Shown here in pieces: positions 5,253-33,537 of a stretch of DNA of 64,000 bases. The stretch covers positions 124,001 to 188,000 of the forward strand of contig JAZKBR010000002.1 in the NCBI GenBank assembly GCA_040388535.1, written 5' to 3'. The notes under the pieces were generated by a model. It was not told the DNA's origin, did no database searches, and saw only the letters and a list, made by a program, of their open reading frames with translations. The translations under genes and the position numbers were made by a program. Position 1 is the first letter of the stretch; the number at the start of each line of letters is the position of its first letter. This DNA is from Gemmatimonadota bacterium. GTDB lineage: Bacteria > Gemmatimonadota > Gemmatimonadetes > Gemmatimonadales > GWC2-71-9.

Positions 5253-6085
5253 GCACCCTCCTGCAGGTCAGCCAGTGCCTTCTGCATCGACAGGTAACCC
5301 GCTTCGGCATACTCGGGGATCTTTTCCATCGCGAAAGTAGCCGCCCGGTCGCTGATCGGGCGCAACCAGATCAACGGCGGGGCGCCCGGGTCGAGTTCCC
5401 AGTGTTCGCGCATCAGCTCGGTCGAACCAGCCATCAGCCAGCCGATCGCGGTGTCTGCCGCGGCAACAAATGGCGGAGGCACCTGCACTGGCGCCCCTTG
5501 CTCGTCGAACGCGGGGCCAACATGAATCGCAATCACGAAATCACACGCAATGCTACGGGCCTGACGCAGCGGGACCACGGCGCGCAGCCCCCCGTCATAG
5601 AACTCCCGACCGTTCACCGGCGCTGCAGCAAAATAAGGCGGCAGGGCGCAGGTAGCGACGAGTACATCGAGAATCGGCGCATCCTCGCCGCCCGTTCCGA
5701 ACGCCACTTCCCTGCCACTCTTCACTTCCGTCGCGGTGACCGTCACCGGGGTCGTCAACTCCGCAAATCGTTGCACCGGAATGATACGCCGGATCGCCTC
5801 GCGCAGAGGCCCGGTCTTGAGCAGCGCGCGGGCCCAGATCCCCTTGAAGAGCTGTAGCCGCTCCGGCGCGATCACGTCGTGCTGCTTCACCCGGGCGAAG
5901 CGATCGAGAATCGCGGCTGGCTCCTCCCCACTCGCCAGTGCGACGGCAATCACGCCCCCCATCGACGTGCCGACGAAATGCACCGGACGGATCCCTGCCT
6001 CGTAGAGCGCCCGCGCCGCGCCGAGATGCGCCGCCGCCTTCGCGCCGCCCCCGCTCAGCACCAGCACGACCCGGGGCGCGTTCAC
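5249..6085 (-). CDS. Patatin-like phospholipase (RssA-like)
   Basis: This is a Ser-Asp dyad acyl hydrolase of the patatin family, 278 residues, GTG start. The oxyanion motif GGGAKAAAH (12-20), nucleophile Ser41 in GTSMG and catalytic Asp164 in YDGGLR are all present. The single compact domain, with no nucleotide-binding or beta-barrel domain, matches the RssA/YchK size class. It probably hydrolyses phospholipid or lysophospholipid acyl chains in the cytoplasm or at the inner membrane. It overlaps the upstream thioesterase gene by 4 bp, which links lipid or acyl hydrolysis functions in this operon. Confidence 0.9.
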   Translation of the reverse strand: MNAPRVVLVLSGGGAKAAAHLGAARALYEAGIRPVHFVGTSMGGVIAVALASGEEPAAILDRFARVKQHDVIAPERLQLFKGIWARALLKTGPLREAIRRIIPVQRFAELTTPVTVTATEVKSGREVAFGTGGEDAPILDVLVATCALPPYFAAAPVNGREFYDGGLRAVVPLRQARSIACDFVIAIHVGPAFDEQGAPVQVPPPFVAAADTAIGWLMAGSTELMREHWELDPGAPPLIWLRPISDRAATFAMEKIPEYAEAGYLSMQKALADLQEGA

Positions 6086-6549
6086 TTCTTCTTGTGATGT
6101 TCGCGGTATTGCTCGGCCGCCGTGTAGCGCGCCTGCTCTTCTTCGGTCCCCGGAATCAGCCGCGGCACCTGCTTTGGCCGACCGTAGTCATCGATCGCCA
6201 CGAACACCACGTGCGCGGTGTGGGTGTTGTGTCGCTCACCGGTGCTTGGCTTCTCGGCGAACACCTCGACCGTGATGTCCATCGACGACTTGCCCACGAA
6301 GTCCACGGTCGCGCAGCAGGTCACCAGCGATCCGATTGGAATCCGTTCCCTGAAGTCCATCGTGTGAATCGAGGCAGTGACGCAGCGGCCTCCGGCGTGG
6401 CGAATCGCCGCGATGGCGGCCGCCTGGTCGACCAGCGCGAGCAGGTTCCCGCCGAAGAGGTCGCCGAGCAGGTTCGACATGTGCGGCATCACCAGCGTGG
6501 AAATCTCGCCACGCGAGTACGACATCGGACGACTTTCGGGAAGCGACAT
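6082..6549 (-). CDS. Acyl-CoA thioesterase, hotdog fold (YciA-like)
   Basis: This enzyme hydrolyses acyl-CoA thioesters. It has 155 residues from the ATG at 6549. The motif HMSNLLGDLFGGNLLALVDQAAAIAA is the hotdog helix of YciA/BFIT-type thioesterases, and TASIHTMDFRERIPIGSLV is the following conserved strand. One in-frame codon upstream is a TTG. The ATG is preferred because it forms a TGATG junction with the nadE stop. A lysine-rich tail (EHHKKK) ends the protein. It is the second gene of the nadE operon. Confidence 0.88.
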   Translation of the reverse strand: MSLPESRPMSYSRGEISTLVMPHMSNLLGDLFGGNLLALVDQAAAIAAIRHAGGRCVTASIHTMDFRERIPIGSLVTCCATVDFVGKSSMDITVEVFAEKPSTGERHNTHTAHVVFVAIDDYGRPKQVPRLIPGTEEEQARYTAAEQYREHHKKK

Positions 6550-10554: not shown

Positions 10555-10974
10555 TCAGGGAAGAGAGGTGTCTCGCCCGCCATTCCACCGATGCCAGTAC
10601 ATCCGCAGCTCGGTGATCTTGGCGCCGTCAGTCTCGGCAAAGAAGGCGCCGCGCGCCTCCACCCAGTCACCGGTTTTCCTGCGCCGGAACACCAGCTTGA
10701 ACTCGGTCGAAATCCAGGGCCCTGCCAGAAATACTTCGCCGGTGGTGAAGACGGTTTCGGACTGATGGTAGGGGATGTCCGAGGCCCAGCTGCGGATCGC
10801 CTCGATCCCGGTGAGCGGCGTCGAGAACGGGGTCTCGATCAGCACGGCCCCCTCGGCAAACACCCCGAGCATCTGGTCGGTCCGCCCCCGGCTCCACCCC
10901 GTGGCAAACGCGTCGACGAGTTCGCGGGCCACGACCCGCATGACGGCGATATCAGGCATCGAATCGGTGCTCAT
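10555..10974 (-). CDS. NTF2/SnoaL-like small protein
   Basis: This protein of about 139 residues has the cone-shaped NTF2-like pattern: an initial helix pair (VARELVDAFATGWSRGRTDQMLGVFAEGAVLIETPF), then GIEAIRSWASD and four strands ending ITELRMYWHRWN. Members act as small isomerases, hydrolases or ligand-binding proteins, and no catalytic dyad can be assigned here. The ATG at 10974 is preferred; a GTG lies one codon upstream. It is a stand-alone gene, divergent from the DinB-like gene. Confidence 0.75.
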   Translation of the reverse strand: MSTDSMPDIAVMRVVARELVDAFATGWSRGRTDQMLGVFAEGAVLIETPFSTPLTGIEAIRSWASDIPYHQSETVFTTGEVFLAGPWISTEFKLVFRRRKTGDWVEARGAFFAETDGAKITELRMYWHRWNGGRDTSLP

Positions 10975-11028
10975 CACTGGAACCTACACCCGCGCGGCTA
11001 CATTCGAAGGACTCGCCCCGGAGGACGG

Positions 11029-11535
11029 ATGTCGCTGACCGACCGGCCCGCTGTGGTCGCTGCACTCGAAGCCAATCTGCGCCATATCGAACGGGTGGTC
11101 GCTCACGCCGACCCTGCAACGTCGGCCCTGCGTCCCACACCCGATGAGTGGTCGGTCCTCGAGATCCTGGAGCACCTCACCGTGGTCGAGCGCGCGGTGC
11201 ACAAGGCGATCACCACAGCGGCCGGAGAGGCACCCGGCGAGTTGCGGACCCGCCAGAAGGATGCGATGGTCGCCGGTCTCGCGAGTTACCCCGCCGCCGT
11301 CAGCGCGCCCGAAATGGTCCATCCGAAGGGCCGCTACGAGAGTCTCGCCGACGCGCTGCGCATCTTCCGCGAGCGCCGCAATACCACGCTCGACCTCGCC
11401 CGTTCGCTCGACGTGGCCTGGGATGCGCATCACTTCGCGCACCCCCTGCTTGGGCGGATCGATCTTGGGCAATGGTTCCTGATGGCCGCGACGCACGGCG
11501 AGCGTCACGCGGTGCAGATCGAGCAGCGACGCTAG
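11029..11535 (+). CDS. DinB-like (DinB_2) four-helix protein
   Basis: This 168-residue protein has the DinB/YfiT metal-binding helix bundle pattern. Three histidines are spaced as in the family (ILEHLTVVER, AHHFAHPLLGRIDLGQW, ATHGERHAVQIEQ). Members are often thiol-S-transferases or of unknown function. The start at 11029 is supported by GGAGG 5-6 bp upstream and a TACATT box further upstream. The last 4 bp overlap the convergent kinase gene. Confidence 0.82.
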   Translation: MSLTDRPAVVAALEANLRHIERVVAHADPATSALRPTPDEWSVLEILEHLTVVERAVHKAITTAAGEAPGELRTRQKDAMVAGLASYPAAVSAPEMVHPKGRYESLADALRIFRERRNTTLDLARSLDVAWDAHHFAHPLLGRIDLGQWFLMAATHGERHAVQIEQRR

Positions 11536-14420
11536 GTCCTGCTCTTGGCACCTTCGGCCGTGAGCCGCTGCAGTGCTTCCTTCGCTTCCCGCTGACGACT
11601 CACATAGTTGGAATCAGGGTGATTCCAGAGTCGCACGAATTGCCCATACGACGCCAGGGCCTCCTCGCGCTGGCCATCAGCTTCGTAGGCCTTGCCGAGA
11701 TAATACATCGTGATCGGCATCAGTTCGGGCGAGAGTTCGAAGCCGTACCGCAGCCGCTCGATTCCCTGCTTGCGCGTCGCCGGGCGCGACGAGAGCAACA
11801 AGGCATACCGGAGCTGCACCGGTGTCGTGAAGCCGGTGATCGCGAGTCCGCCGGCGACCCGCAGCCCCGAATCTGCGCGTGCCATCCCGCGGACGGTATC
11901 ACCCTGACTCACCATCCGGATACCATCCAGCGCGATGAGTGCGCCACGCAACCAGTACGGCATCGTGTCGCTCGCCGCCGCGAGGGTCTGCTGAATCAGA
12001 GTTCCCGCGCGCGCGGGCTGTCCGCGGTCGAACGCGAGCATCGCCTTGATGAAATTGACGTACATGTTGGGCGGTGCCGCGGCGAGACTGGTCTCGAGTC
12101 GCTGTAGCAGCAGGCTGTCAGCGTAGCCACCGTAGAACGGTGTCATCGAAAGCGTCGAAGCGGTCTGCATCTCGCCGGCAGCGCGCAAGGAATCCACGAT
12201 CCCCTTCGCACCTGACGGCCGCCCCACCGAGGAACTCAGCAGCGCTTCAAGGCCGACAAATTGCAACTTCAGGCCACCATTGGCTGGCGTCGAGGCAATC
12301 GCCTTCCCCAGCTTGGCGAGTGAATCACCGGTGGAGCGGGTATCGCGAATCACGGAATTCAGTGCGGCACGGGCGAGACCCGAACCCGACACCGGCCCCT
12401 GGACGATCCGCGCGAAGGCACTGCCATCGCCCGCCATGATCGCCTGCGCCGCCTCGACCTGATCGATCTCGGCCTTCGCGCCGGCAAGCTTGAAGACGGC
12501 CGCGTAGCGCCGGATCGCGGCGGTATCGCGCTGGCCCAGGGCGAGTTCCATCGGATGGATGGCAGCGGGTGTCAGCGAGGAGTCGAGCTCGAGTACGTGA
12601 TCGAACGGAGCCCGCAGCTTGGCCGGCGGCATTGGGGCGTAGCCGTTGGCGTGATACTGCGACTCCCCGAGCAGGTACCACGCATCGGCGTCATTCGGGA
12701 ACTTCTGCAGATATCCGCGCATCGAATCTGCGGCCGACGGATCGCCCTGCTGGAAGAGCGAATACGCGCCCAGGATCGTGCGGAGTCGTGGCGAGAGTGT
12801 GGTCGAGTACTTCACGGCGTTGGCCGAGGCCTTCATCGCCGCGGGCGAGAGATAGTTGCCGGTCCAGCCGAGGGTATTCGCGAGGCGATACCAGGCGAGG
12901 GCGAAGGTCGAGTCGGCGGCCACGGCAGCTTCGAACGCGATCTGCGCCGAGTCCCACTGGCCGCGCCGGTGGAACCACTCGCCCTTGAGGTAGTCACGAA
13001 TCGCTGGCATCGACGCGGAGACGATGCCGCTGGAATTCGCCGACGGCATCGGCTCCTTGGAGCGCCAGATGTCCTGCAGCACCTTGAGCGCGAGACGATC
13101 GGCCAGCACCAGAATCGAGTCGGACGGACCATCCAGCGTGGCCTGGGCGAGTGACTTCCCCTGCATATCGAAGAGTTCGGCCGTGAGCCGTGCGGTGTTG
13201 CCCGTGGCGACCACGGTGCCCGTGAGCACCGAGGCAGCTTTCACACTGCGACCGACTGCCAGCGCATCTTCGCGGGCACCATCACCGTTCTTCACCCGGC
13301 GGCGCCACTCGCGCAAGACCGTGCGCGGTTCGATGGCGTGAATCCCGCCGACTCCCTCGAAGTTGCTCGAGAGGAGATCAACCATTCCTTCGCCGAGCCC
13401 GGCAGCAGCAGCGCCGCTGGTGGAAAACGGCATCACCGCGATGGTCTCGGCACCCGAGACGACAATCGCGGCCGGCTTCGCGAAGAAGACCACCCAGAGC
13501 CCTGCTGCGACCGCGACCAGCGCCGGAAGCACGATCGCGAGTCGCTTCCAGCGACGGCTCTCGCGGGTCGCGGCAGCCGCACCGGTGCTCTCCTGGGCCA
13601 CCGCTTCCGCAAACGCCGTGATGCTGGGGAAGCGCTTCGCCGGGTCAGTATCGAGCGCACGCTGCGTGGCGAGGTCAACCTCGGGCGGCGTTTCGCGCAT
13701 CACGGCAGCGAGCCGCGGGCGCGGCCCCGTGAGCATCGAAGTAAGCATCGCCTGCATCGACGGCCCGGAGAACGCCTGCTTGCCCGTGACCATCTCGTAG
13801 AACACGCAGGCGAGGGCGTACTGATCGCTACGCGCGTCAACCTTGTCTGCCGTGGCCTGCTCTGGGCTCATGTACGCTGGCGTGCCGATCGCCATTCCGG
13901 AGCCGGTGATGTTGCCATCAGCGCGCGACGCATCGACCGCGCGCGCGATCCCGAAATCGGTAACGACCGCGTGACCACCCGACAGCATGATGTTCTCGGG
14001 CTTGACGTCGCGGTGCACGATCCCCTGCGCGTGCGCATAGGCGAGTCCGCTGGCAGCCTCGCCGACGATCACAGCAGCGCGGGCCAGCGGCACCCGACCG
14101 CTCCGCGTGAGCAGGTCACGTAGCGACTCGCCTTCGACGAACGGCATCACATAGTAGAGCAGGCCGTCGGCGGCGCCGGAGTCGTACACCGGCACGATGT
14201 GCGGGTGCTGCAGCCGTGCGGCCATCTCGATTTCGCGGAGGAAGCGTTCGGCGCCGAGAGTTGCGGAGAGTTCGGGGCGGAGGACCTTGATCGCCACCTG
14301 GCGGTGGTGCTTCAGGTCTTCCGCAAGGAAGACCGTGGCCATGCCACCTTCACCGACCTGGCGTTCGACCGCATAGGTCTCGCGCAGCGCCGTACGCAGA
14401 CGCTCGAGGATATCGGACAT
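11532..14420 (-). CDS. Membrane serine/threonine protein kinase with large extracytoplasmic sensor region
   Basis: This is a 962-residue eukaryotic-type kinase. The kinase domain spans about residues 16-275: glycine loop GEGGMATVF (23-31), Lys45 in VAIKVL, catalytic HRD with Asp138, and DFG (155-157). One transmembrane helix (about 290-312) leads to a C-terminal region of about 650 residues. That region begins with a TolB-N-like AVMPF segment and continues as TPR-like helical repeats (AWYRLANTLGWTGNY, AWYLLGESQYHANGY). It probably phosphorylates cytoplasmic targets in response to envelope signals. The 102-bp upstream gap holds a possible TTACCG-16-TAGTTT promoter on the minus strand. Confidence 0.92.
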   Translation of the reverse strand: MSDILERLRTALRETYAVERQVGEGGMATVFLAEDLKHHRQVAIKVLRPELSATLGAERFLREIEMAARLQHPHIVPVYDSGAADGLLYYVMPFVEGESLRDLLTRSGRVPLARAAVIVGEAASGLAYAHAQGIVHRDVKPENIMLSGGHAVVTDFGIARAVDASRADGNITGSGMAIGTPAYMSPEQATADKVDARSDQYALACVFYEMVTGKQAFSGPSMQAMLTSMLTGPRPRLAAVMRETPPEVDLATQRALDTDPAKRFPSITAFAEAVAQESTGAAAATRESRRWKRLAIVLPALVAVAAGLWVVFFAKPAAIVVSGAETIAVMPFSTSGAAAAGLGEGMVDLLSSNFEGVGGIHAIEPRTVLREWRRRVKNGDGAREDALAVGRSVKAASVLTGTVVATGNTARLTAELFDMQGKSLAQATLDGPSDSILVLADRLALKVLQDIWRSKEPMPSANSSGIVSASMPAIRDYLKGEWFHRRGQWDSAQIAFEAAVAADSTFALAWYRLANTLGWTGNYLSPAAMKASANAVKYSTTLSPRLRTILGAYSLFQQGDPSAADSMRGYLQKFPNDADAWYLLGESQYHANGYAPMPPAKLRAPFDHVLELDSSLTPAAIHPMELALGQRDTAAIRRYAAVFKLAGAKAEIDQVEAAQAIMAGDGSAFARIVQGPVSGSGLARAALNSVIRDTRSTGDSLAKLGKAIASTPANGGLKLQFVGLEALLSSSVGRPSGAKGIVDSLRAAGEMQTASTLSMTPFYGGYADSLLLQRLETSLAAAPPNMYVNFIKAMLAFDRGQPARAGTLIQQTLAAASDTMPYWLRGALIALDGIRMVSQGDTVRGMARADSGLRVAGGLAITGFTTPVQLRYALLLSSRPATRKQGIERLRYGFELSPELMPITMYYLGKAYEADGQREEALASYGQFVRLWNHPDSNYVSRQREAKEALQRLTAEGAKSRT

Positions 14421-21549: not shown

Positions 21550-21792
21550 TCAACGCCGCGCCGCGGCGGCCCGCCTCGCCCGCCGACCGGCGCTCCACCG
21601 CCGGATAGCTCGATGGCCCGTCGCGCTGGCAGCCGCGAGAACTGGGACCGCGACCAGGAGGAAGACCAGTGAACGGGGGTTCCGGCTCCATCCCATCAGG
21701 CGTGTCACGACAATAGTCAGCCCGAGGACAGCCATTTCCCCGAGGAACTCCCACTTCCACTCGACTCGTTCTTCGGCATTCCGCCGGTTCAT
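21550..21792 (-). CDS. Small two-helix membrane protein
   Basis: This 80-residue protein has two hydrophobic segments (about 18-34 and 42-58) and a very basic Arg/Ala-rich tail (RRWSAGRRARRAAAARR). The start overlaps the Nudix gene stop by 4 bp, supporting it as a real translated gene at the end of that operon. No family is recognised. It could anchor to the membrane and bind nucleic acid or lipid head groups through its basic tail, but this is speculation. Confidence 0.6.
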   Translation of the reverse strand: MNRRNAEERVEWKWEFLGEMAVLGLTIVVTRLMGWSRNPRSLVFLLVAVPVLAAASATGHRAIRRWSAGRRARRAAAARR

Positions 21793-22397
21793 TGCCCCTC
21801 CCTGATTGGACTGTCAGTACCCAGCAACTGCCACCGCTGCAGCACCGGCGTCACGATCCGCTCGGTCATCCCCCAGAGAAATCCTTCCGGCAGGTGATAT
21901 CCCTCGACCTCGCGATCGGCTCCGCGGATGTTGATCGAGGCGGTCCGAAATACTCCCGGCCCGGTGAGGTAGTCGAGGGTGACCCACCCCACCTGCGCCA
22001 CCTCGTCGCTGACCTGCGGCACCATTTCGGCCTCGAGATGGAAGACAAACGGCCGCACCAGAATGGGCGGCAATACCGCCGACCGTGGTGCGAGGTCATC
22101 GAGGGTGGCGACATGCCAGGCCCGCTCGAGTTCCAGCCCGGTTTCCTCGCGAGTCTCGCGAATGGCGGTCGCAAGCAGGTCCTCGTCCTGACCGTCGCGG
22201 CGGCCGCCCGGGAGAGCGAGTTGTCCGGACCAGGGGTCGCCGACCCGATCGGCGCGTCGGATCAGGAGCAACCGGTCGGGATCGGCCACCAGGAGCAGCG
22301 CCACGGCAGCCTCGGGCCGGCTGGGGTCGTTGACGCGAATCGGATCCCGCGAAGCAACCCCGGCGATGAGCCGCTCCAGGCGGGTCAGCTCACGCAT
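21789..22397 (-). CDS. Nudix hydrolase, CoA-pyrophosphatase (NudL) type
   Basis: This 202-residue Nudix enzyme probably cleaves CoA or derivatives to phosphopantetheine and 3',5'-ADP. The motif LPGGRRDGQDEDLLATAIRETREETGL has the NudL-type D-x2-D spacing and the metal-binding REtxEE core. SGQLALPGG and an N-terminal AVALLLVADPDRLLLIRRA strand fit the subfamily. GAGGTGA lies 6 bp upstream of the ATG. It follows the alpha/beta hydrolase gene by 45 bp on the same strand. Confidence 0.85.
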   Translation of the reverse strand: MRELTRLERLIAGVASRDPIRVNDPSRPEAAVALLLVADPDRLLLIRRADRVGDPWSGQLALPGGRRDGQDEDLLATAIRETREETGLELERAWHVATLDDLAPRSAVLPPILVRPFVFHLEAEMVPQVSDEVAQVGWVTLDYLTGPGVFRTASINIRGADREVEGYHLPEGFLWGMTERIVTPVLQRWQLLGTDSPIREGQ

Positions 22398-24434: not shown

Positions 24435-25390
24435 CGCACCGCGGCTTCAAGCAGGGCGAGCTCGCCACGCGTGGCATCGAGTTCGGCTGTCACGCCGATG
24501 GGGAGTGTCCATTGATCGTCGATGTGGCCGATCGGGAAACCGGCGGCCACGGGCACCTTGAGCGGGGCGAAGTACGTGTGCAGCACCTCGTCGAGCCCGA
24601 GTGCACCACCATCGGTGCCGTTCTTCATCTCGGTGAATCGCCCCACCGCCACACCGGCCACTTTCTGCAAGGCACCAACGCCGCGCAAGTGCGCCAGCAT
24701 CCGGTCGATGCGATAGACATCCTCGCTCACATCCTCGATGAAGAGAATCGCGCCATCGAGGTCAGGAAAGTGCGGCGTGCCGATGAGCGCCTGAAGCAAC
24801 GTCAGGTTGCCGCCAATGAGAGGGCCGCGTGCTGCGCCAGGGGAAATGGAGATGATCCGCCCTTCCTTCGGCACCAGCACATCCGGCTTGGGAGCCGGAC
24901 TGCCGAGGGTGCCGGGCGCGCTGACGGTTGTCAGGACGCGGTCGAAATGCCACCGTTGGAAATTCGGCATCGGCGTGCGCGCAATTGGTCCGTGAAATGT
25001 CACGACGCTGGTTTTCTTCCAGAGTGCCAGCAGCAGGACGGTGATGTCCGAGAAGCCGATCACCGGCTTCGGGTGACGCGCAAACCCGGCGAAGTCGACC
25101 CGGTCGATAATCCGGTTCATCCCGTTGCCACCACGCAGGCACCAGACGGCATCCACGCTGCTCGAGGCGAGCGCGGCGTTGAGATCGGCAAGTCGCTCGT
25201 CGTCGGTCCCGGCGAGGTAACCGTAGGCCTTGCCTGCGTTTGGCCCCACGGTCGGTTCGAAGCCGAGGGCGCGACAGAGCTCGGCACCGCGGTCGCGGTC
25301 GTCGCGCTCCAGCAATGGCCCGGAAGGTGCGATCAAGGCAACGCGTGCACCGGGCGCGAGGCGAGGTGGCAGAATCGGCTTGGGAAGCAT
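24431..25390 (-). CDS. LD-carboxypeptidase (peptidase S66)
   Basis: This serine peptidase trims murein tetrapeptides (L,D-peptide bond) or related compounds, 319 residues. The expected S66 triad is visible: Ser in IGFSDIT, Glu in AILFIEDV and His in GFPIGHIDDQ. The N-terminal ALIAPSGP and the WCLRGGNGMNRI motif are typical. It is probably cytoplasmic and acts in cell-wall recycling; MccF-type self-immunity enzymes belong to the same family. GGAG lies 5 bp upstream of the ATG. Confidence 0.9.
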   Translation of the reverse strand: MLPKPILPPRLAPGARVALIAPSGPLLERDDRDRGAELCRALGFEPTVGPNAGKAYGYLAGTDDERLADLNAALASSSVDAVWCLRGGNGMNRIIDRVDFAGFARHPKPVIGFSDITVLLLALWKKTSVVTFHGPIARTPMPNFQRWHFDRVLTTVSAPGTLGSPAPKPDVLVPKEGRIISISPGAARGPLIGGNLTLLQALIGTPHFPDLDGAILFIEDVSEDVYRIDRMLAHLRGVGALQKVAGVAVGRFTEMKNGTDGGALGLDEVLHTYFAPLKVPVAAGFPIGHIDDQWTLPIGVTAELDATRGELALLEAAVR

Positions 25391-25407
25391 CAGAACTCCG
25401 GTTACGA

Positions 25408-25992
25408 TTGAACGACTTTTTCAGGAGACGGCGCCTGCGCTCGTCCCATCCGACTCAACTGGCGGCCGCCAAGGCCGTTCTCGATGCCCGCGAGGCGATG
25501 GTCGCCGAATGGGCTGACTGGCTCGACGATCGCGCCGGTTCCAGCGCCATTCCGCGCCCGAGCATCGAGCGGCAATATCGCCTGATCATCGACACCCTGG
25601 TCGAAATGCTGGGGCCGCTTCGTCGCGAAGCCAACCCGGTCTGGCAGCAAGCCATGGAACACTACGGCCGGACGGCCGCAGCGCGAGGGCTCGCCGCCGG
25701 CGAGGTGGTCGAGGAGCTGCAGCAGCTCCGCGTGATGCTGATCAAGTATATCGGTCCGTTCGTGGCGGCGATGCGGCCGCGTCGGGCCGTGGCCGTCTTC
25801 CTCCGCCTCAACGCGATCATCGACCGCGGTATCGCCTTCGCCGTGGTGGGTTACACCGATGCGCTGGTGGCCTCGCTGATGATGACCGACGAGCAAACCG
25901 AACACCCGCTCACCGAAGCCACCGCCGATTCGGTCGGCCGGCAGCTGAATGTCTTCGAATCGGAGCTCGGTGCCATTACGGCGCGACACTGA
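25408..25992 (+). CDS. RsbRD N-terminal-domain-like protein (stressosome/sensor type)
   Basis: This all-helical protein of about 194 residues matches the RsbRD_N/histidine-kinase-N pattern: LDAREAMVAEWADWLDD, then RQYRLIIDTLVEMLG, then AARGLAAGEVVEELQQLRVMLIKYI. No STAS or kinase domain follows, so it is the sensor module alone. The start is uncertain. The TTG at 25408 keeps the first helix and leaves 17 bp to the divergent LD-carboxypeptidase; the ATG at 25498 would cut into the domain. The 3' end overlaps the convergent secreted-protein gene by 17 bp. Confidence 0.65.
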   Translation: MNDFFRRRRLRSSHPTQLAAAKAVLDAREAMVAEWADWLDDRAGSSAIPRPSIERQYRLIIDTLVEMLGPLRREANPVWQQAMEHYGRTAAARGLAAGEVVEELQQLRVMLIKYIGPFVAAMRPRRAVAVFLRLNAIIDRGIAFAVVGYTDALVASLMMTDEQTEHPLTEATADSVGRQLNVFESELGAITARH

Positions 25993-27775: not shown

Positions 27776-27807
27776 ACGCCGGCATCCCGCGAGGATGCCG
27801 GCGTGTT
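27776..27807 (+). terminator. Intrinsic terminator that runs into the methylase start
   Basis: A 12-bp perfect stem ACGCCGGCATCC/GGATGCCGGCGT (27776-27787 with 27793-27804), loop CGCGA, is followed by GTT. It should end the transcript of the upstream secreted-protein gene. The GTG start of the methylase (27803) overlaps the 3' arm of the stem, so the hairpin may also affect its translation. Confidence 0.65.
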
Positions 27808-30745
27808 CACTTCCACCTCGCTATCGACAGCGCAACTGCACGCGGCCCTGATCCACCAGCTCGGTGGTGCGGCGTGCCTTGTACCGGTGCCGGCATCACA
27901 GCGCGGCGCGCACCTCGAAGTCGGAGAGCTCGCTCAGCTCCCGGTGTGGAGCACTGCCGCCACCGCCGCCACCGCGCGCGCACTCGGCCGGCTGCTTACC
28001 CGGGGTGGGCATCTGGGCCTCCTGCTCGCGCGCGATCCCGCGAGCGGCGATCACAGCATCGGCGTCACCATCGCGCCCTTCCGCCTGGTGGCGCTGGGGC
28101 CGGAGCCACTGACGGCGCTTCCCCTCCGTCGAGTTGCGCTCGGGATGCACCACGCGCGCGCCACCTCACTCGAGCAGGCGATCGCCTTTGCCGAGGCCCT
28201 CGACGTCGACGCAGCCGGTCGGCGTACCTTTTCATTGCTGCGCGGATTGCTCGATCGGGCCACGGCGCTTCTCCCCGGCCGAGTGCCTCGCGAAGAGCGC
28301 CACGCCTGGACCCTGGTGCAACTCACGCGGCTCCTCTTCCTCCGTTTCGTGGAATCGGAAGGGTGGCTCGACGGCAATCCCCGTTTCCTCGCCGACGCCA
28401 TTGATCAGTGCCTCGGCACGCGTCGTGACCCGACTCGTCACCTGCTGCATCCGCTCTTCTTCGGGACGCTGAATCGGCCCCACGCACTTCGCTCACGCTT
28501 TGCACAGCGATTCGGCGCAGTCCCCTTTCTCAACGGTGGCCTCTTCGAACCGCATCCCATCGAGCGGGCGCGCCCGATGCGCCTCCCCACAGAATTCTGG
28601 CGCGACACGTTCGCTGCGCTGGTGGATCGGGTTGAGGTCTCGCTCGATGCCGAAGCGAGCGATGGCCGAGTGACGCCAGAACTTCTCGGGCGAGTCTTCG
28701 AAGGGGTCATGGATGTCGACGAGCGAAAACAGGAAGGGGCATTCTTCACTCCGCCCCGCCTCGTCGATGGCATCGTTCGCGAGGCCCTGGGCTGTCACCT
28801 CGCATACCGCCTGCATCGCTCGGAAGCCGCGGTGCTGCGATCGCTTCACGACCCCGACACCGAACTCTCCCGCGCGCTGCTCGACGTCACGATTCTCGAT
28901 CCTGCCGTCGGCTCTGGCGCCTTCCTGGTGGGCGCGCTCGGCCTGCTTCACGGGCCGGGACCACGACATCCAGCACGGGTGCGACATCTCGTCACGCGGC
29001 GACTCTTTGGCGTCGATCGTCACCCCGACGCGGTGCGGCTCACGGAACTCCGGCTCTGGCTCGAAGTGCTCCGCGCGATGCGTGGTCGCCCGGCCCATCG
29101 CGTGCCACCGCTCCCCAATCTTGATGCGGCCGTGCGAGCGGGTGACGCGCTGCTCGATCCGCTCGCAGGGCATCCGCTGGCGCCGGGGAGTATCGCAGCG
29201 CTCGCCCGGCGACAGCGCGCCCTCGCCGCTGCGAGTGGCTCGACCAAGCGCAGCGTCCTCGCCGACCTCCGGCGCCTGGAATCCCGCGGCATCGTGGACG
29301 CCCTGATGCATCGTGAAGCGGCACTCGAGCGACGAATCACCGACCTCCTCTCTTCCGGCCGGCGCACCGATCTCTTTGGCGAGCGCGCCCGGCTGCCGCA
29401 GAGTGACGGTCGCGCCATCGCTGTGCTGCGGCAGGAGCGTGCCGAAGTGCGTCGCGAACGGCGCCGGACGGGCCGGGCACAGAGCGCCGCGCCGTTCGCA
29501 ATCGCTGCGGCATTCGGCCCCGTGCTGGCACGTCGCGGCGGCTTCGATCTGGTCGTGGGCAATCCACCCTGGGTGCGAGCCGAGCGGCTCCCCGAGCCGA
29601 TGCGCCGCGCGCTCGCCGTTCGATACCGCTGGTGGCGATCCACCGGCAGCGGGTGGCGCCACCTTCCCGACCTTTCCGTTGCGTTCCTCGAGCGGAGCTA
29701 CCAGTTGCTGGCGCAACATGGCACAGTGGCCCTCCTGGTCCCCGCCAAACTCGCCACCGCCAGCTACGCGCGGGTCTGCCGCGATGCGCTTGGGACGGTG
29801 GCCACCCTGCATCGCGTCGCCGACCTCGCCAATGATGCCCGCGCCGGCTTCGACGCTACCACCTACCCACTCGCCATTGTCGCCTCTCGGCGCGGTCCAC
29901 ACGCGAGGCATCAGGTGCATCTCGGCCTCACCCTCGACGCACCAGCCACACCGCAAGCGGAGTGGTCCCGGGCCGATGCCTGGCTCCTGGCATCGCCAGC
30001 CGTCCAGAGCCTCGCCCATCGCATGCTCGACGAGCACCCGGCGCTAAGTGATGTCGTCGCGCTGCAACTCGGGGTGAAGACTGGGGCGAACGATGCCTTT
30101 CTTGACCCGCCTGATGCGCTTGCGGCGTGGTCACTGCTGGCGCTTCGCGGGCGTGATGTGCGCGCTTTCCGCTGTCACCCGAGTGCCCGGATGCTCTGGC
30201 CGGCGGACTCGCACGGAGCACCGTGGCCGACGCTGCCACCGGAACTGCAGGAACACCTCGCTCCTCACCAGGCGATGCTGCGTCGACGGACTGATCTGCA
30301 CGATGACACCTGGTGGCGGCTCTTCCGTACCGGGGCCGCGACTGCCGCGCATCGGGTGGCGTGGGGCGATCTCGCCCGGCGACTCGAGGCCACCGTCGTC
30401 ACCGACCCGCGCGTCATTCCGATCAACAGCTGCTATGTGGCGGCACTCCCCACGGCGAGCGCCGCCGAATCCCTCACTGCCTGGCTCAATTGCAGCTGGA
30501 TCCGCGCCCTCGCGCGATTGCGCGCCGAGCCTGCAGCCGGAGGTGCCGCGCGATTTGGTGCGCGCGCGGTTGGCCGGGTACCACTGCCTCGCGCCGTTCT
30601 CGGACATCCGGTGCTCGCCGCACTGACCCACTCGGCGGCGACTCACGATGTGGCCGAGGCACTCGATGACTGCACTGCTGACCTCCTCGGACTCGACCGG
30701 AATGACCGCGCCCTCCTCGCGCCGCTGGCCGCGCATCGTCGCTGA
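27803..30745 (+). CDS. Large Eco57I/PglX-type N6-adenine DNA methyltransferase
   Basis: This is a 980-residue class I N6-adenine methylase. SAM motif I is DPAVGSGAF (from 366) and catalytic motif IV is NPPW (587-590), in the context GGFDLVVGNPPWVRAERLP. GRVFEGVMDVDERKQEGAFFTPP before motif I is the usual lead-in for Eco57I/PglX enzymes. A charged helical insert (about 470-570) separates the two motifs. The C-terminal 350 residues resemble a target-recognition region (ALSDVVALQLGVKTGANDAFL, RVIPINSCYVAALP). I see no PD-(D/E)XK, HNH or PLD nuclease in it. The start is a GTG, and later starts would cut the N-terminal domain. A helicase gene follows at once, so it probably belongs to a defence or modification module. 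Confidence 0.88.
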   Translation: MFTSTSLSTAQLHAALIHQLGGAACLVPVPASQRGAHLEVGELAQLPVWSTAATAATARALGRLLTRGGHLGLLLARDPASGDHSIGVTIAPFRLVALGPEPLTALPLRRVALGMHHARATSLEQAIAFAEALDVDAAGRRTFSLLRGLLDRATALLPGRVPREERHAWTLVQLTRLLFLRFVESEGWLDGNPRFLADAIDQCLGTRRDPTRHLLHPLFFGTLNRPHALRSRFAQRFGAVPFLNGGLFEPHPIERARPMRLPTEFWRDTFAALVDRVEVSLDAEASDGRVTPELLGRVFEGVMDVDERKQEGAFFTPPRLVDGIVREALGCHLAYRLHRSEAAVLRSLHDPDTELSRALLDVTILDPAVGSGAFLVGALGLLHGPGPRHPARVRHLVTRRLFGVDRHPDAVRLTELRLWLEVLRAMRGRPAHRVPPLPNLDAAVRAGDALLDPLAGHPLAPGSIAALARRQRALAAASGSTKRSVLADLRRLESRGIVDALMHREAALERRITDLLSSGRRTDLFGERARLPQSDGRAIAVLRQERAEVRRERRRTGRAQSAAPFAIAAAFGPVLARRGGFDLVVGNPPWVRAERLPEPMRRALAVRYRWWRSTGSGWRHLPDLSVAFLERSYQLLAQHGTVALLVPAKLATASYARVCRDALGTVATLHRVADLANDARAGFDATTYPLAIVASRRGPHARHQVHLGLTLDAPATPQAEWSRADAWLLASPAVQSLAHRMLDEHPALSDVVALQLGVKTGANDAFLDPPDALAAWSLLALRGRDVRAFRCHPSARMLWPADSHGAPWPTLPPELQEHLAPHQAMLRRRTDLHDDTWWRLFRTGAATAAHRVAWGDLARRLEATVVTDPRVIPINSCYVAALPTASAAESLTAWLNCSWIRALARLRAEPAAGGAARFGARAVGRVPLPRAVLGHPVLAALTHSAATHDVAEALDDCTADLLGLDRNDRALLAPLAAHRR

Positions 30746-32897
30746 GTCGCTGGCCGGTGTGAGCGACCCCCTCCGCACCGTGGGTCGCCGGCCAGAGAGC
30801 GCAACGCTCGCGGCGGTGCAGGCCGCAGCAGTCGCGGCGTTTGCAGTGGGGCGCGCTATCGAGCGACCGCCAGCGTTTCTTCAGCTGCATCAGGTCGACG
30901 CCTGGCGCCGGGCACACTTTGCCATGGCCCGGTTTGGTGGCGCCCTGCTCGCAGAGCCGGTCGGCAGCGGCAAGAGCTGGATTGCACTTGGTCTTGCGCA
31001 CTCCGAGCACCGACCAGCACTCGTGATCGCACCTGCCGTGTTGCTCGAACAATGGCACCAGACGTCAGCGGCAGCCGGAGTGCCCATCCAGACCTGGTCG
31101 CACGAACGGCTCAGTCGTGGTTCCCTGCCACCGGGGCAGCATTCACTTGTCGTCGTCGATGAGGCACATCGTTTCCGCGATCCGGCGATTCGCCGCGTTG
31201 CGACGCTCGCGCCGTGGCTCCTCGGCAGGCGGACGCTGCTGCTCACCGCAACACCAATCGTCAACCAGCTGCGGGATCTCGTCACGCTGCTTCGTCTCAT
31301 CGTACCCGAGGATGCCCTCCTGCTCGATGGCATTCCGAGTCTCCCTGCCATCGCACAGCTCGAGATACCACCGGTCGCGTTGCGCCGACTGGTCATCCGC
31401 AGCGCGGCCACACCACGCTACGCCGATCGCCAGCTCCACCGGATCGGCACCAGTCCACAGGAAGCGGCACGGATCGAGCGAGCGATTGCCGGGATAGACT
31501 CGCTGGTGTTGAGCCGCACCCCGGCTTTTCGTCGCCTGCTTCGGAGCGTGCTCCTCGATGCCGCCGCATCGAGCGATGCCGCACTGCACCGCGCTTGCGC
31601 GCGCTATCGCGCACTCCTGCTGCACGGCCGCGATGCCGGTGGAGTCTCGCGGGCGAGCATTCGTCAATTCGCTGGCGAGGCCCTCGAGCAGCTGGTGTTC
31701 TGGGATCTGCTCGGCACCGACCACGATGGCGAACTCGCCCTCGAGGATATCGACCGAGTCGACACCATTCGCGCAGCTCCCCCCGACGACTCCGCCTGGA
31801 TTGAAGAACTCGTGTCTGCGATACCGCCACTTCATTCTGGGGACGGGGTCCGAGGCCAAGCCGACGCCGGTGTGACCGTCTGCTTCACCCGTCATCGAGC
31901 CACGGCCCAGGCGCTACGCGAATCCCTTGGGGATGCGGTCGGCTGGGTCACGGGAAGTGACGCGGGCATCGGTCCGCATCGCCTCACGCGCGCGGTCTTG
32001 CTGGAAGCGTTTGGAACGCGCCGGCACCTTTGGCGGGCCCGGCGGGAGCCACCCCGGCTGCTCATCGCGACCGATGTCGCCGCGGAGGGGCTCGACCTGC
32101 AATCCGCCGGATGCCTCGTTCACGTGGACCTGCCGTGGACGGCGATGCGCGTGGAGCAGCGTGAGGGGCGTCTGCTCCGGATCGGGCAGCAGCACCAGCA
32201 GGTACGAGTGGTCGTCAGGGTTCCGCCTCCTGCCATGGAAGCGGCACTTGCGAGCCGCGCACGCATTCGACGCAAGCGCTCGCTCAGCGAGCGCTGGTTG
32301 GCAGCCCTCGGTCGCTCCGCGGCAACAGTGACAGCGCTTCCCGCCGTGCCCCTCGTGGCAACAGTTGCAGACGGCTCCCCCGATGCCGCGCTACTTGTCG
32401 TGGCCACAAGTCGCGGGACACACACCGGCGCGCGAATACTGGTTCGCATTGGCGATGAATCGTGGTGCGCTGACCCCGCTGCTGCCGCCGCCCTGTGGCA
32501 ACGTGCACACGCGGGCATAGGTGGGACCCTCGCAGCCATTCCTGATGATCTCGCGTTCGACTTCGCCACAGCCCTGCGCGAAGTCGTGGGTGCGCTCGCG
32601 CCCGCCCCGGGAAGCACTCCCTCCCTCACCGGCAGGATCCAGCGACTCGCGCGCACCGCGGCCGCGCGTCGCGACGCCGCGGCGCTGGCGGCGCTCGATC
32701 GGTTGCTCCGCTTCGCGATCGCTCCGCCAACGCTCGGCGGTCGAATCCTGATCGACACGCTTGCGGCGGCCCCTGATCGCGACTTGCTCCGGACCCCGGT
32801 TCCCGACCTGCCGCGGCAATCGGCCGTCGCGGCTCGCGTCGTCGCGGCGCTCCTCTTCCGTTCTTCGGCTGCGCCGCTACGTTGCCCGGATGCCTGA
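30702..32897 (+). CDS. SNF2/RapA-like superfamily 2 helicase partner of the methylase
   Basis: This SF2 ATPase has about 731 residues if it starts at the ATG at 30702, 44 bp inside the methylase gene. A GTG at 30759, 13 bp after the methylase stop, is an equally good alternative. Numbered from 30702, Walker A is GSGKS (88-92) and DEAH is 153-156. LLLTATP is motif III, and TDVAAEGLDLQSAG with QREGRLLRIGQQH are motifs V and VI. This spacing and the RIGQ ending are typical of SNF2/RapA translocases. A C-terminal region of about 240 residues, Ala/Arg-rich, has no recognised domain and no nuclease motif. The nearest functional analogy is DrmD of class 1 DISARM, which is encoded with an adenine methylase. 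Confidence 0.87.
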   Translation: MTAPSSRRWPRIVAESLAGVSDPLRTVGRRPESATLAAVQAAAVAAFAVGRAIERPPAFLQLHQVDAWRRAHFAMARFGGALLAEPVGSGKSWIALGLAHSEHRPALVIAPAVLLEQWHQTSAAAGVPIQTWSHERLSRGSLPPGQHSLVVVDEAHRFRDPAIRRVATLAPWLLGRRTLLLTATPIVNQLRDLVTLLRLIVPEDALLLDGIPSLPAIAQLEIPPVALRRLVIRSAATPRYADRQLHRIGTSPQEAARIERAIAGIDSLVLSRTPAFRRLLRSVLLDAAASSDAALHRACARYRALLLHGRDAGGVSRASIRQFAGEALEQLVFWDLLGTDHDGELALEDIDRVDTIRAAPPDDSAWIEELVSAIPPLHSGDGVRGQADAGVTVCFTRHRATAQALRESLGDAVGWVTGSDAGIGPHRLTRAVLLEAFGTRRHLWRARREPPRLLIATDVAAEGLDLQSAGCLVHVDLPWTAMRVEQREGRLLRIGQQHQQVRVVVRVPPPAMEAALASRARIRRKRSLSERWLAALGRSAATVTALPAVPLVATVADGSPDAALLVVATSRGTHTGARILVRIGDESWCADPAAAAALWQRAHAGIGGTLAAIPDDLAFDFATALREVVGALAPAPGSTPSLTGRIQRLARTAAARRDAAALAALDRLLRFAIAPPTLGGRILIDTLAAAPDRDLLRTPVPDLPRQSAVAARVVAALLFRSSAAPLRCPDA

Positions 32898-33537
32898 CAT
32901 CCAGACCGTACTCTTCGACCTCGACGGAACCCTCCTCGATTCGGTCGACCTGATCGTCGACAGCTATCACCATACGCTGGCGGCCCACTCGCTGACACCG
33001 ATGACGCGAGACGAAATTCTCGCCGGCCTGGGCACCACGCTCTACGCCGTCTTCGGGCGAATGACCGATGATCCGGCGACCATCGCAGCGTGGGTCGCGA
33101 CCTATCGCGAATACAATCTCGCCCACCACGACGCGCGCGCCCGGGCCTATCCCGGGGCGGTCGAGATGGTCCGTCGCATTGCGGCCGCGGGACACCGGCT
33201 CGGCCTGGTCACCAGCAAGAACCGCGGTGGCGCCGAACGCGGGCTCCGGCTGATGGGACTCGAGGGCGTGATGGAAGTCATCGTGGGCGCCGACGATGTC
33301 GTGAAGCCGAAGCCCGACCCCGAGCCGGTGCTGCTGGCGCTCGAGCGACTCGGCGAGTCGGCAGAGACCACGATCTTCGTGGGCGACTCGCATCACGACA
33401 TCTACTCTGGTCGCGCGGCCGGTGTACTGACGGCCGGAGTCACCTGGGGGCCGTTCGACCGCGCCCACCTCGAGTTCGCTGCACCCGACTATTACTGCGA
33501 CACCCCCGACGAACTACTGAGGTTGATTCGCGCCTAG
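32890..33537 (+). CDS. HAD-family phosphatase (phosphoglycolate phosphatase/PpaX-like)
   Basis: This 215-residue haloacid-dehalogenase phosphatase has the DxDxT motif FDLDGT (Asp10 and Asp12), a motif II serine/threonine in LVTSKNR, Lys in VVKPKPDPEP and acidic motif IV GDSHHD. The helical cap insertion (about 15-85) places it in subfamily IA. It probably dephosphorylates phosphoglycolate or pyrophosphate. It overlaps the helicase 3' end by 8 bp. A TACGTT box 6 bp before the ATG could give it an independent leaderless promoter, so membership in the methylase-helicase module is doubtful. Confidence 0.88.
   Translation: MPDIQTVLFDLDGTLLDSVDLIVDSYHHTLAAHSLTPMTRDEILAGLGTTLYAVFGRMTDDPATIAAWVATYREYNLAHHDARARAYPGAVEMVRRIAAAGHRLGLVTSKNRGGAERGLRLMGLEGVMEVIVGADDVVKPKPDPEPVLLALERLGESAETTIFVGDSHHDIYSGRAAGVLTAGVTWGPFDRAHLEFAAPDYYCDTPDELLRLIRA

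Follow-up and report, generated by a model that had tools for sequence, protein, structure and literature searches.

Methylase and motor genes of the locus

The window analysed, a stretch of 64,000 nucleotides from a Gemmatimonadota bacterium (contig JAZKBR010000002.1), carries on its forward strand two adjoining genes, which we identified as encoding an N6-adenine DNA methyltransferase and an SNF2-type motor. The methylase ORF (27803-30745) specifies 980 aa, with the AdoMet-binding motif I, DPAVGSGAF, at residue 366 (28898-28924) and the catalytic motif IV, NPPW, at residue 587 (29561-29572). Pfam matches to Eco57I (3.7e-16), N6_Mtase and, weakly, MmeI_hel, together with an AlphaFold2 model and the orthologues, characterize the product as an Eco57I/MmeI-like enzyme. 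Its residues 1-126 (27803-28180) form an alpha/beta domain that is poorly conserved, as judged from the alignment consensus and the model, and residues 745-935 (30035-30607) form the target-recognition region. The longest ORF for the helicase (30648-32897, 749 aa) matched SNF2-rel_dom (3.7e-11) and Helicase_C, and contains GSGKS (part of the Walker A motif VGSGKS, 30960-30977), DEAH (31158-31169), LTATP and QREGRLLRIGQ (overlapping helicase motif VI, EQREGRLLR, 32154-32180).

The two ORFs, with these coordinates and motifs, had been named in the initial annotation and were recovered here unchanged. It had also placed the helicase right after the methylase; the adjacency holds, but the genes probably overlap. 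Specifically, homology of the helicase with its relatives begins in the alignment at a WP motif, residue 27 of the longest ORF, and because the conserved N-terminus lies there, the most likely start is the ATG at 30702, inside the end of the methylase gene, which would give a motor of 731 aa (30702-32897) and, therefore, an overlap of about 44 nt. From this start, the segment 30702-30854 would encode a short linker, in a position that in relatives is occupied by a PLD nuclease or a dead PLD domain of about 200 residues, as indicated by the spacing and a PLD profile. Both ORFs can be taken as coding far beyond chance, since almost every genome of the order encodes homologues of the two proteins.

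Structural models and conservation of motifs

The AlphaFold2 model of the methylase (pLDDT 87) had CamA as its closest fold (Z 28.9, rmsd 3.8 over 502 residues), followed by BrxX (Z 26.6) and MmeI (Z 25.5). The model of the motor (pLDDT 73) matched SNF2 remodellers over residues 71-557, with Z up to 18.8 and an rmsd of 3.4, and ZorD was also among its structural matches (Z 16.2). Catalytic motifs were retained in the alignments. Motif I, with minor changes at most, and NPPW were kept in 77 of 77 Gemmatimonadales methylase rows, whereas the Walker A motif (G-x-G-K) and motif VI (QR-x-GR-x-x-R) of the motor were kept in all 71 near-full-length helicases, and DEAH or DESH in 74 of 75 (DEAH 61, DESH 13, DEIH 1). 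NPPW was also present in 14 of 14 near relatives, whereas the nuclease-armed pairs described below have NPPY in 51 of 55 cases; NPPW is a signature of the clade.

The unassigned C-terminus of the helicase had been proposed as the most likely place for a new effector domain. Our comparisons make such a domain unlikely. The C-terminal segment of about 200 residues (32298-32894) is conserved less than any other part of the helicase, with a mean pairwise identity of 19-22% versus 41-44% in the motor lobes, and is hardly where a conserved effector domain would be expected; the tail is also modelled largely at low confidence, with pLDDT below 50 for residues 557-582 and 603-658. The Foldseek/VIA match list for the helicase was filled by the motor and says little about the tail. 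At the other end of the pair, an alpha-beta-beta-beta-alpha-beta order was predicted by the model for residues 1-126 of the methylase, and the alignment contained no conserved D...(D/E)xK of a type IIG/IIL, MmeI-like nuclease in these residues across the order.

Distribution and arrangement in Gemmatimonadales

In 61 related genomes drawn from the genus, family and order, both genes were present in 56 and neither in four, with the methylase alone in a single genome that is 69% complete; the motor was thus found in 56 of 61 and the methylase in 57 of 61, and co-occurrence of the genes rests on this sample and on the fetched loci. As a control, type I HsdR, which is typical of mobile restriction genes, was detected in no more than 14 of these 61 genomes. 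Among Gemmatimonadales genomes at least 90% complete, 104 of 115 contained a full-type methylase, one weak match being left out. Orthologues thus occur in more than half of the related species and a linked nuclease was not found, the pattern of a lineage-specific (orphan-type) methylase. Most of the genomes are metagenome-assembled, and several single-contig genomes (G029, G043, G058 and G152) carry the pair. The 11 genomes of the 115 that have no methylase are mostly small (median 2.6 versus 3.6 Mb; Mann-Whitney p 0.0008). The pair is therefore not essential, and its loss in smaller genomes is as expected for a useful but dispensable core function under genome reduction. Searches of plasmids and phages returned weak matches only, to the motor lobes, which agrees with a pair that is not mobile in its present form. 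The pair is a core, vertically inherited locus of Gemmatimonadales, an order of bacteria living in soil and water, and not a mobile defence cassette.

Some single loci deserve mention. Locus L260, in a 7.5-Mb genome (G107), encodes a methylase that looks intact; no motor was detected in the 19.5 kb examined at this locus. In addition, an IMG/VR contig filed as viral (L196) carries a related nuclease-less pair close to that of Acidobacteriota L129; the contig could be of cellular origin, or the pair may have a mobile form.

In some 75 loci of Gemmatimonadales, with a few genomes represented twice, the methylase gene precedes a motor gene of like orientation, and 159-247 nt separate the methylase stop from helicase motif I. 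Few loci depart from this pattern. L088 (G051), in which the two genes share a strand but lie about 12 kb apart, is the only one seen with a wide separation, and in L086 the gap is about 1.2 kb. Two neighbours recur in families f1, f2 and f3, but not in every locus. A gene for a Nudix hydrolase (Pfam NUDIX; 21789-22397, reverse strand, in the window) lies upstream and on the opposite strand in all 34 loci where it was found, and a gene for a HAD phosphatase (32881-33537, forward strand) usually lies directly behind the helicase on the same strand, in these three families and in some f9 loci. These counts are BLAST-based; single-linkage clustering had mixed true genes with shadow ORFs. The HAD phosphatase, nearest to PpaX (213 bits to PRK13288 against a cut-off of 218), could belong to the operon as its third gene. 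Pfam also identified an LD-carboxypeptidase, a di-haem cytochrome c peroxidase, a DUF885 protein, a Kelch protein and a PQQ dehydrogenase among the flanking proteins and gave no match for the rest. A conserved upstream protein (25240-25992), likewise without any Pfam match, is present in families f1 and f3 but not in f2.

The absence of recognizable partners beside the pair, noted at the outset from the sequence alone, was borne out: nine flanking proteins had no PADLOC match, so that no nuclease, DrmA, DrmB, DrmC, PglZ or other gene recognized by PADLOC adjoins the pair, and no conserved nuclease was found among the flanking genes. In the related genomes, the pair is likewise conserved without further defence genes. 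In the methylase tree, a quick LG+G4 tree that is unrooted, f1, f2 and f3 each formed one clade with support of 99-100, and a fully supported branch parted the nuclease-less rows from the nuclease-armed rows.

Nuclease-armed relatives and probable loss of the PLD domain

Outside Gemmatimonadota, the same methylase family mostly adjoins an SNF2 motor of about 1050-1120 residues, and profiles built from Gemmatimonadales found both partners, side by side, in most of the distant loci. These longer motors begin with a PLD nuclease domain, as seen in the four scanned with Pfam and in the alignment; a profile built from them matched 63 distant partner motors, in which HxK...GSSN...E-x-N is plain in the alignment. 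The profile gave no match in the window, in any Gemmatimonadales motor or in the motors of the closest outside relatives (Myxococcota L123, L124 and L126; Acidobacteriota L129). Elsewhere in the genome of the window no PLD relative was found, and only three of the 61 related genomes have a weak one. Nuclease-bearing kin, a possibility raised in the initial annotation, are thus absent near the pair in Gemmatimonadales but do exist among its wider relatives, with the PLD fused to the N-terminus of the motor.

Two families of the same class, f4 and f9, are intermediates, with 675-1013 nt between the methylase stop and motif I. In the sister family f4, the extra segment of about 200 residues is a PLD domain (hhalign probability 98.2%, E 3.9e-14), sometimes in a separate ORF, and it is dead, the residues of HxK, GSSN and E-x-N all being replaced. 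The extra domain of f9 is too diverged to be identified on its own by profile comparison. In L249, a dead PLD-like domain is encoded by a small ORF of its own (5613-6305), located between those of the methylase and the motor; such a domain can therefore persist as a distinct protein without the catalytic residues. In the unrooted methylase tree, the branch order of the families with complete deletion and those with a dead PLD was moderately supported only. Because that tree is unrooted, the direction of loss is deduced from the dead PLD domains and from how widely the armed form occurs, and the simplest history is inactivation of the nuclease followed by its deletion, perhaps more than once.

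Conservation of the target-recognition region

Recognition domains of restriction systems generally diversify more quickly than the catalytic cores. We compared the identity of the recognition region with that of the catalytic core over all sequence pairs. In Gemmatimonadales, the former follows the latter, being 0.38 at a core identity of 0.42, 0.45 at 0.49 and 0.66 at 0.70, whereas in the nuclease-armed pairs it is 0.24 at 0.39, 0.30 at 0.49 and 0.37 at 0.70 (six pairs only), the contrast being one between a single order and a control group that spans many phyla. These values suggest that, like the sites of Dam, CcrM and CamA, the target site has stayed unchanged within the order; they give this good support, though not proof.

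Comparison with described systems

The best PADLOC models were DrmMI for the methylase (92 bits) and DrmD for the motor (72 bits). Like the pair, class 1 DISARM joins an adenine methylase (DrmMI) to an SNF2-like helicase (DrmD). However, scores against the NCBIfam equivalogs of DISARM and BREX proteins fell far below cut-off: DrmD gave 82 and 67 bits against cut-offs of 610 and 950, and the PglX models 28-36 bits against 400-900. In addition, DrmA, DrmB and DrmC are absent from the nine flanking proteins, and PglZ and BrxC were unmatched in the flanks. Assignment to DISARM or to BREX was accordingly rejected.

The nearest described system is the Type-2 BREX-related (BR) system, which consists of an HKD nuclease-Swi2/Snf2 helicase, an N6-methylase, DUF499 and DUF3780 and has been proposed to be RM-like (PMC12839542). 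The pair shares with it the N6-methylase and the Swi2-Snf2 helicase, but not the HKD nuclease or the DUF499 ATPase. This assignment, too, was rejected: DUF499 (PF04465) is absent from the whole genome of the window, and the motor has no PLD. Among the flanking proteins scanned with Pfam, no DUF3780 was found. Of 15 other genomes that carry such pairs, 12 lack DUF499 as well, and therefore even the nuclease-armed two-gene pairs are mostly not BR systems.

These armed pairs (L163, L176, L141, L185 and about 60 more), in which a PLD-SNF2 protein ('HKD+Snf2', PADLOC C3a139) accompanies a methylase labelled type IIG, have the same methylase and motor families and the same two-gene core. They differ from the Gemmatimonadales pair in having an active-looking N-terminal PLD, mostly the motor gene first, NPPY, a diversified recognition domain and a patchy distribution. 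Armed pairs of this kind occur, for instance, in Tolypothrix (L160) and Methanoculleus (L176). In the cyanobacterial armed pair L141, an AAA ATPase resembling AriA/OLD/GajA (10843-12672) is encoded between the methylase and the PLD-SNF2 motor. CglI/NgoAVII and SauUSI (PMC4267653, PMC7913695) resemble the armed relatives in coupling a PLD nuclease to an SF2 motor, and are unlike the pair in that the nuclease is present and the specificity comes from another methylase or is of the SRA type. In the open-licence literature, we found neither a description of the nuclease-less form, nor a methylome of the phylum, nor a study of a Gemmatimonas SNF2 protein, nor a methylome, expression or phenotype for the locus.

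A further comparison is with the orphan methylases CamA, CcrM and Dam, which, like the methylase of the pair, are lineage-wide, vertically inherited and without a cognate nuclease. CamA, the best fold match, is a core, sporulation-linked orphan methylase of C. difficile. To our knowledge, CamA, CcrM and Dam act without a dedicated motor; in the pair, however, an SNF2 motor has been kept and co-inherited.

Possible origin and function of the pair

The data are best explained, with a probability that we put at about 0.6, by a domesticated restriction-modification pair, free of its nuclease, which maintains a lineage-wide mark and has a housekeeping role. The ancestor would have been one of the two-gene modules, an N6-adenine methylase with an SNF2 motor bearing an N-terminal PLD nuclease, that occur patchily among bacteria and archaea. 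In Gemmatimonadota, the PLD would have lost its catalytic residues and then been deleted, while the motifs of methylase and motor and their tight linkage were kept. As for the cellular function, we infer that the methylase adds m6A to a single conserved site in all of the order. The motor, which probably either binds the methylase or is drawn to its sites, would travel along duplex DNA, read unmethylated or hemimethylated sites and clear or remodel bound proteins. The outcome would be a housekeeping epigenetic or chromosome-maintenance function in place of DNA cleavage. Between the alternatives first offered for the locus, a remnant or epigenetic system is thus favoured by its core, vertical character and a minimal restriction system is disfavoured, although exclusion without a nuclease stays a rival.

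A bolder proposal, which we make only tentatively, is that a restriction system has turned into a bacterial chromatin-type remodeller, in which a lineage-wide adenine mark is read by a dedicated SNF2 motor serving chromosome replication, repair or transcription across an entire bacterial order. Restriction systems are already known to have given rise to orphan methylases, but in the present pair an ATP-driven motor appears to have been domesticated along with the methylase, and the steps from active nuclease to dead nuclease to no nuclease are still visible in related lineages. It thus becomes testable what the translocating half of a restriction system does for its host once it is unable to cut. 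On the domestication reading, there would also be an epigenetic mark common to the order, in a group for which hardly any epigenetic data exist and of which cultured members are available.

The main rival is an exclusion of the kind proposed for BREX, which acts without a dedicated cut: the methylase would mark self DNA, and the SNF2 motor alone would block replication or transcription of unmethylated invading DNA. A methylase fold closest to CamA and to BREX BrxX/PglX, intact motor motifs, restriction-like wider relatives and the structural match to ZorD are all compatible with it. Near-universal vertical inheritance and a conserved recognition domain are, however, the opposite of what patchy, diversifying defence genes display, as the HsdR control illustrates, and no PADLOC defence genes were found nearby. 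Furthermore, 57% of orphan methylases but only 9% of RM methylases are conserved at the genus level (Blow et al. 2016, PMC4752239), and because the methylase of the pair is conserved at the level of the order, domestication fits better than exclusion, to which we would give roughly one chance in four.

A working restriction system, with its nuclease encoded elsewhere or hidden in an unrecognized domain of the helicase C-terminus or methylase N-terminus, is improbable. Unlinked restriction genes are known (PMC4752239), and the predicted order of secondary structure at the methylase N-terminus would be compatible with a degenerate PD-(D/E)XK fold, but that domain has no conserved acidic or lysine residues, the helicase tail is the most variable part of its protein, the flanking genes include no conserved nuclease, and PLD relatives are absent from the genome of the window and from 58 of the 61 related ones. 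It is very unlikely that the pair is an incomplete DISARM, BREX or BREX-related (DUF499) system; DrmMI and DrmD are its best PADLOC models, but the distance from the NCBIfam cut-offs (DrmD 82 versus 610, PglX 36 versus 400), the lack of partner genes in the flanks and the lack of DUF499 in the genome argue against membership. Least credible of all is a decaying remnant without present function, as the lost nuclease, the variable C-terminal tail and the absence of the pair from reduced genomes might suggest, for all catalytic motifs are kept in 71-77 divergent rows and the open frames are rarely interrupted despite divergence down to about 30% identity.
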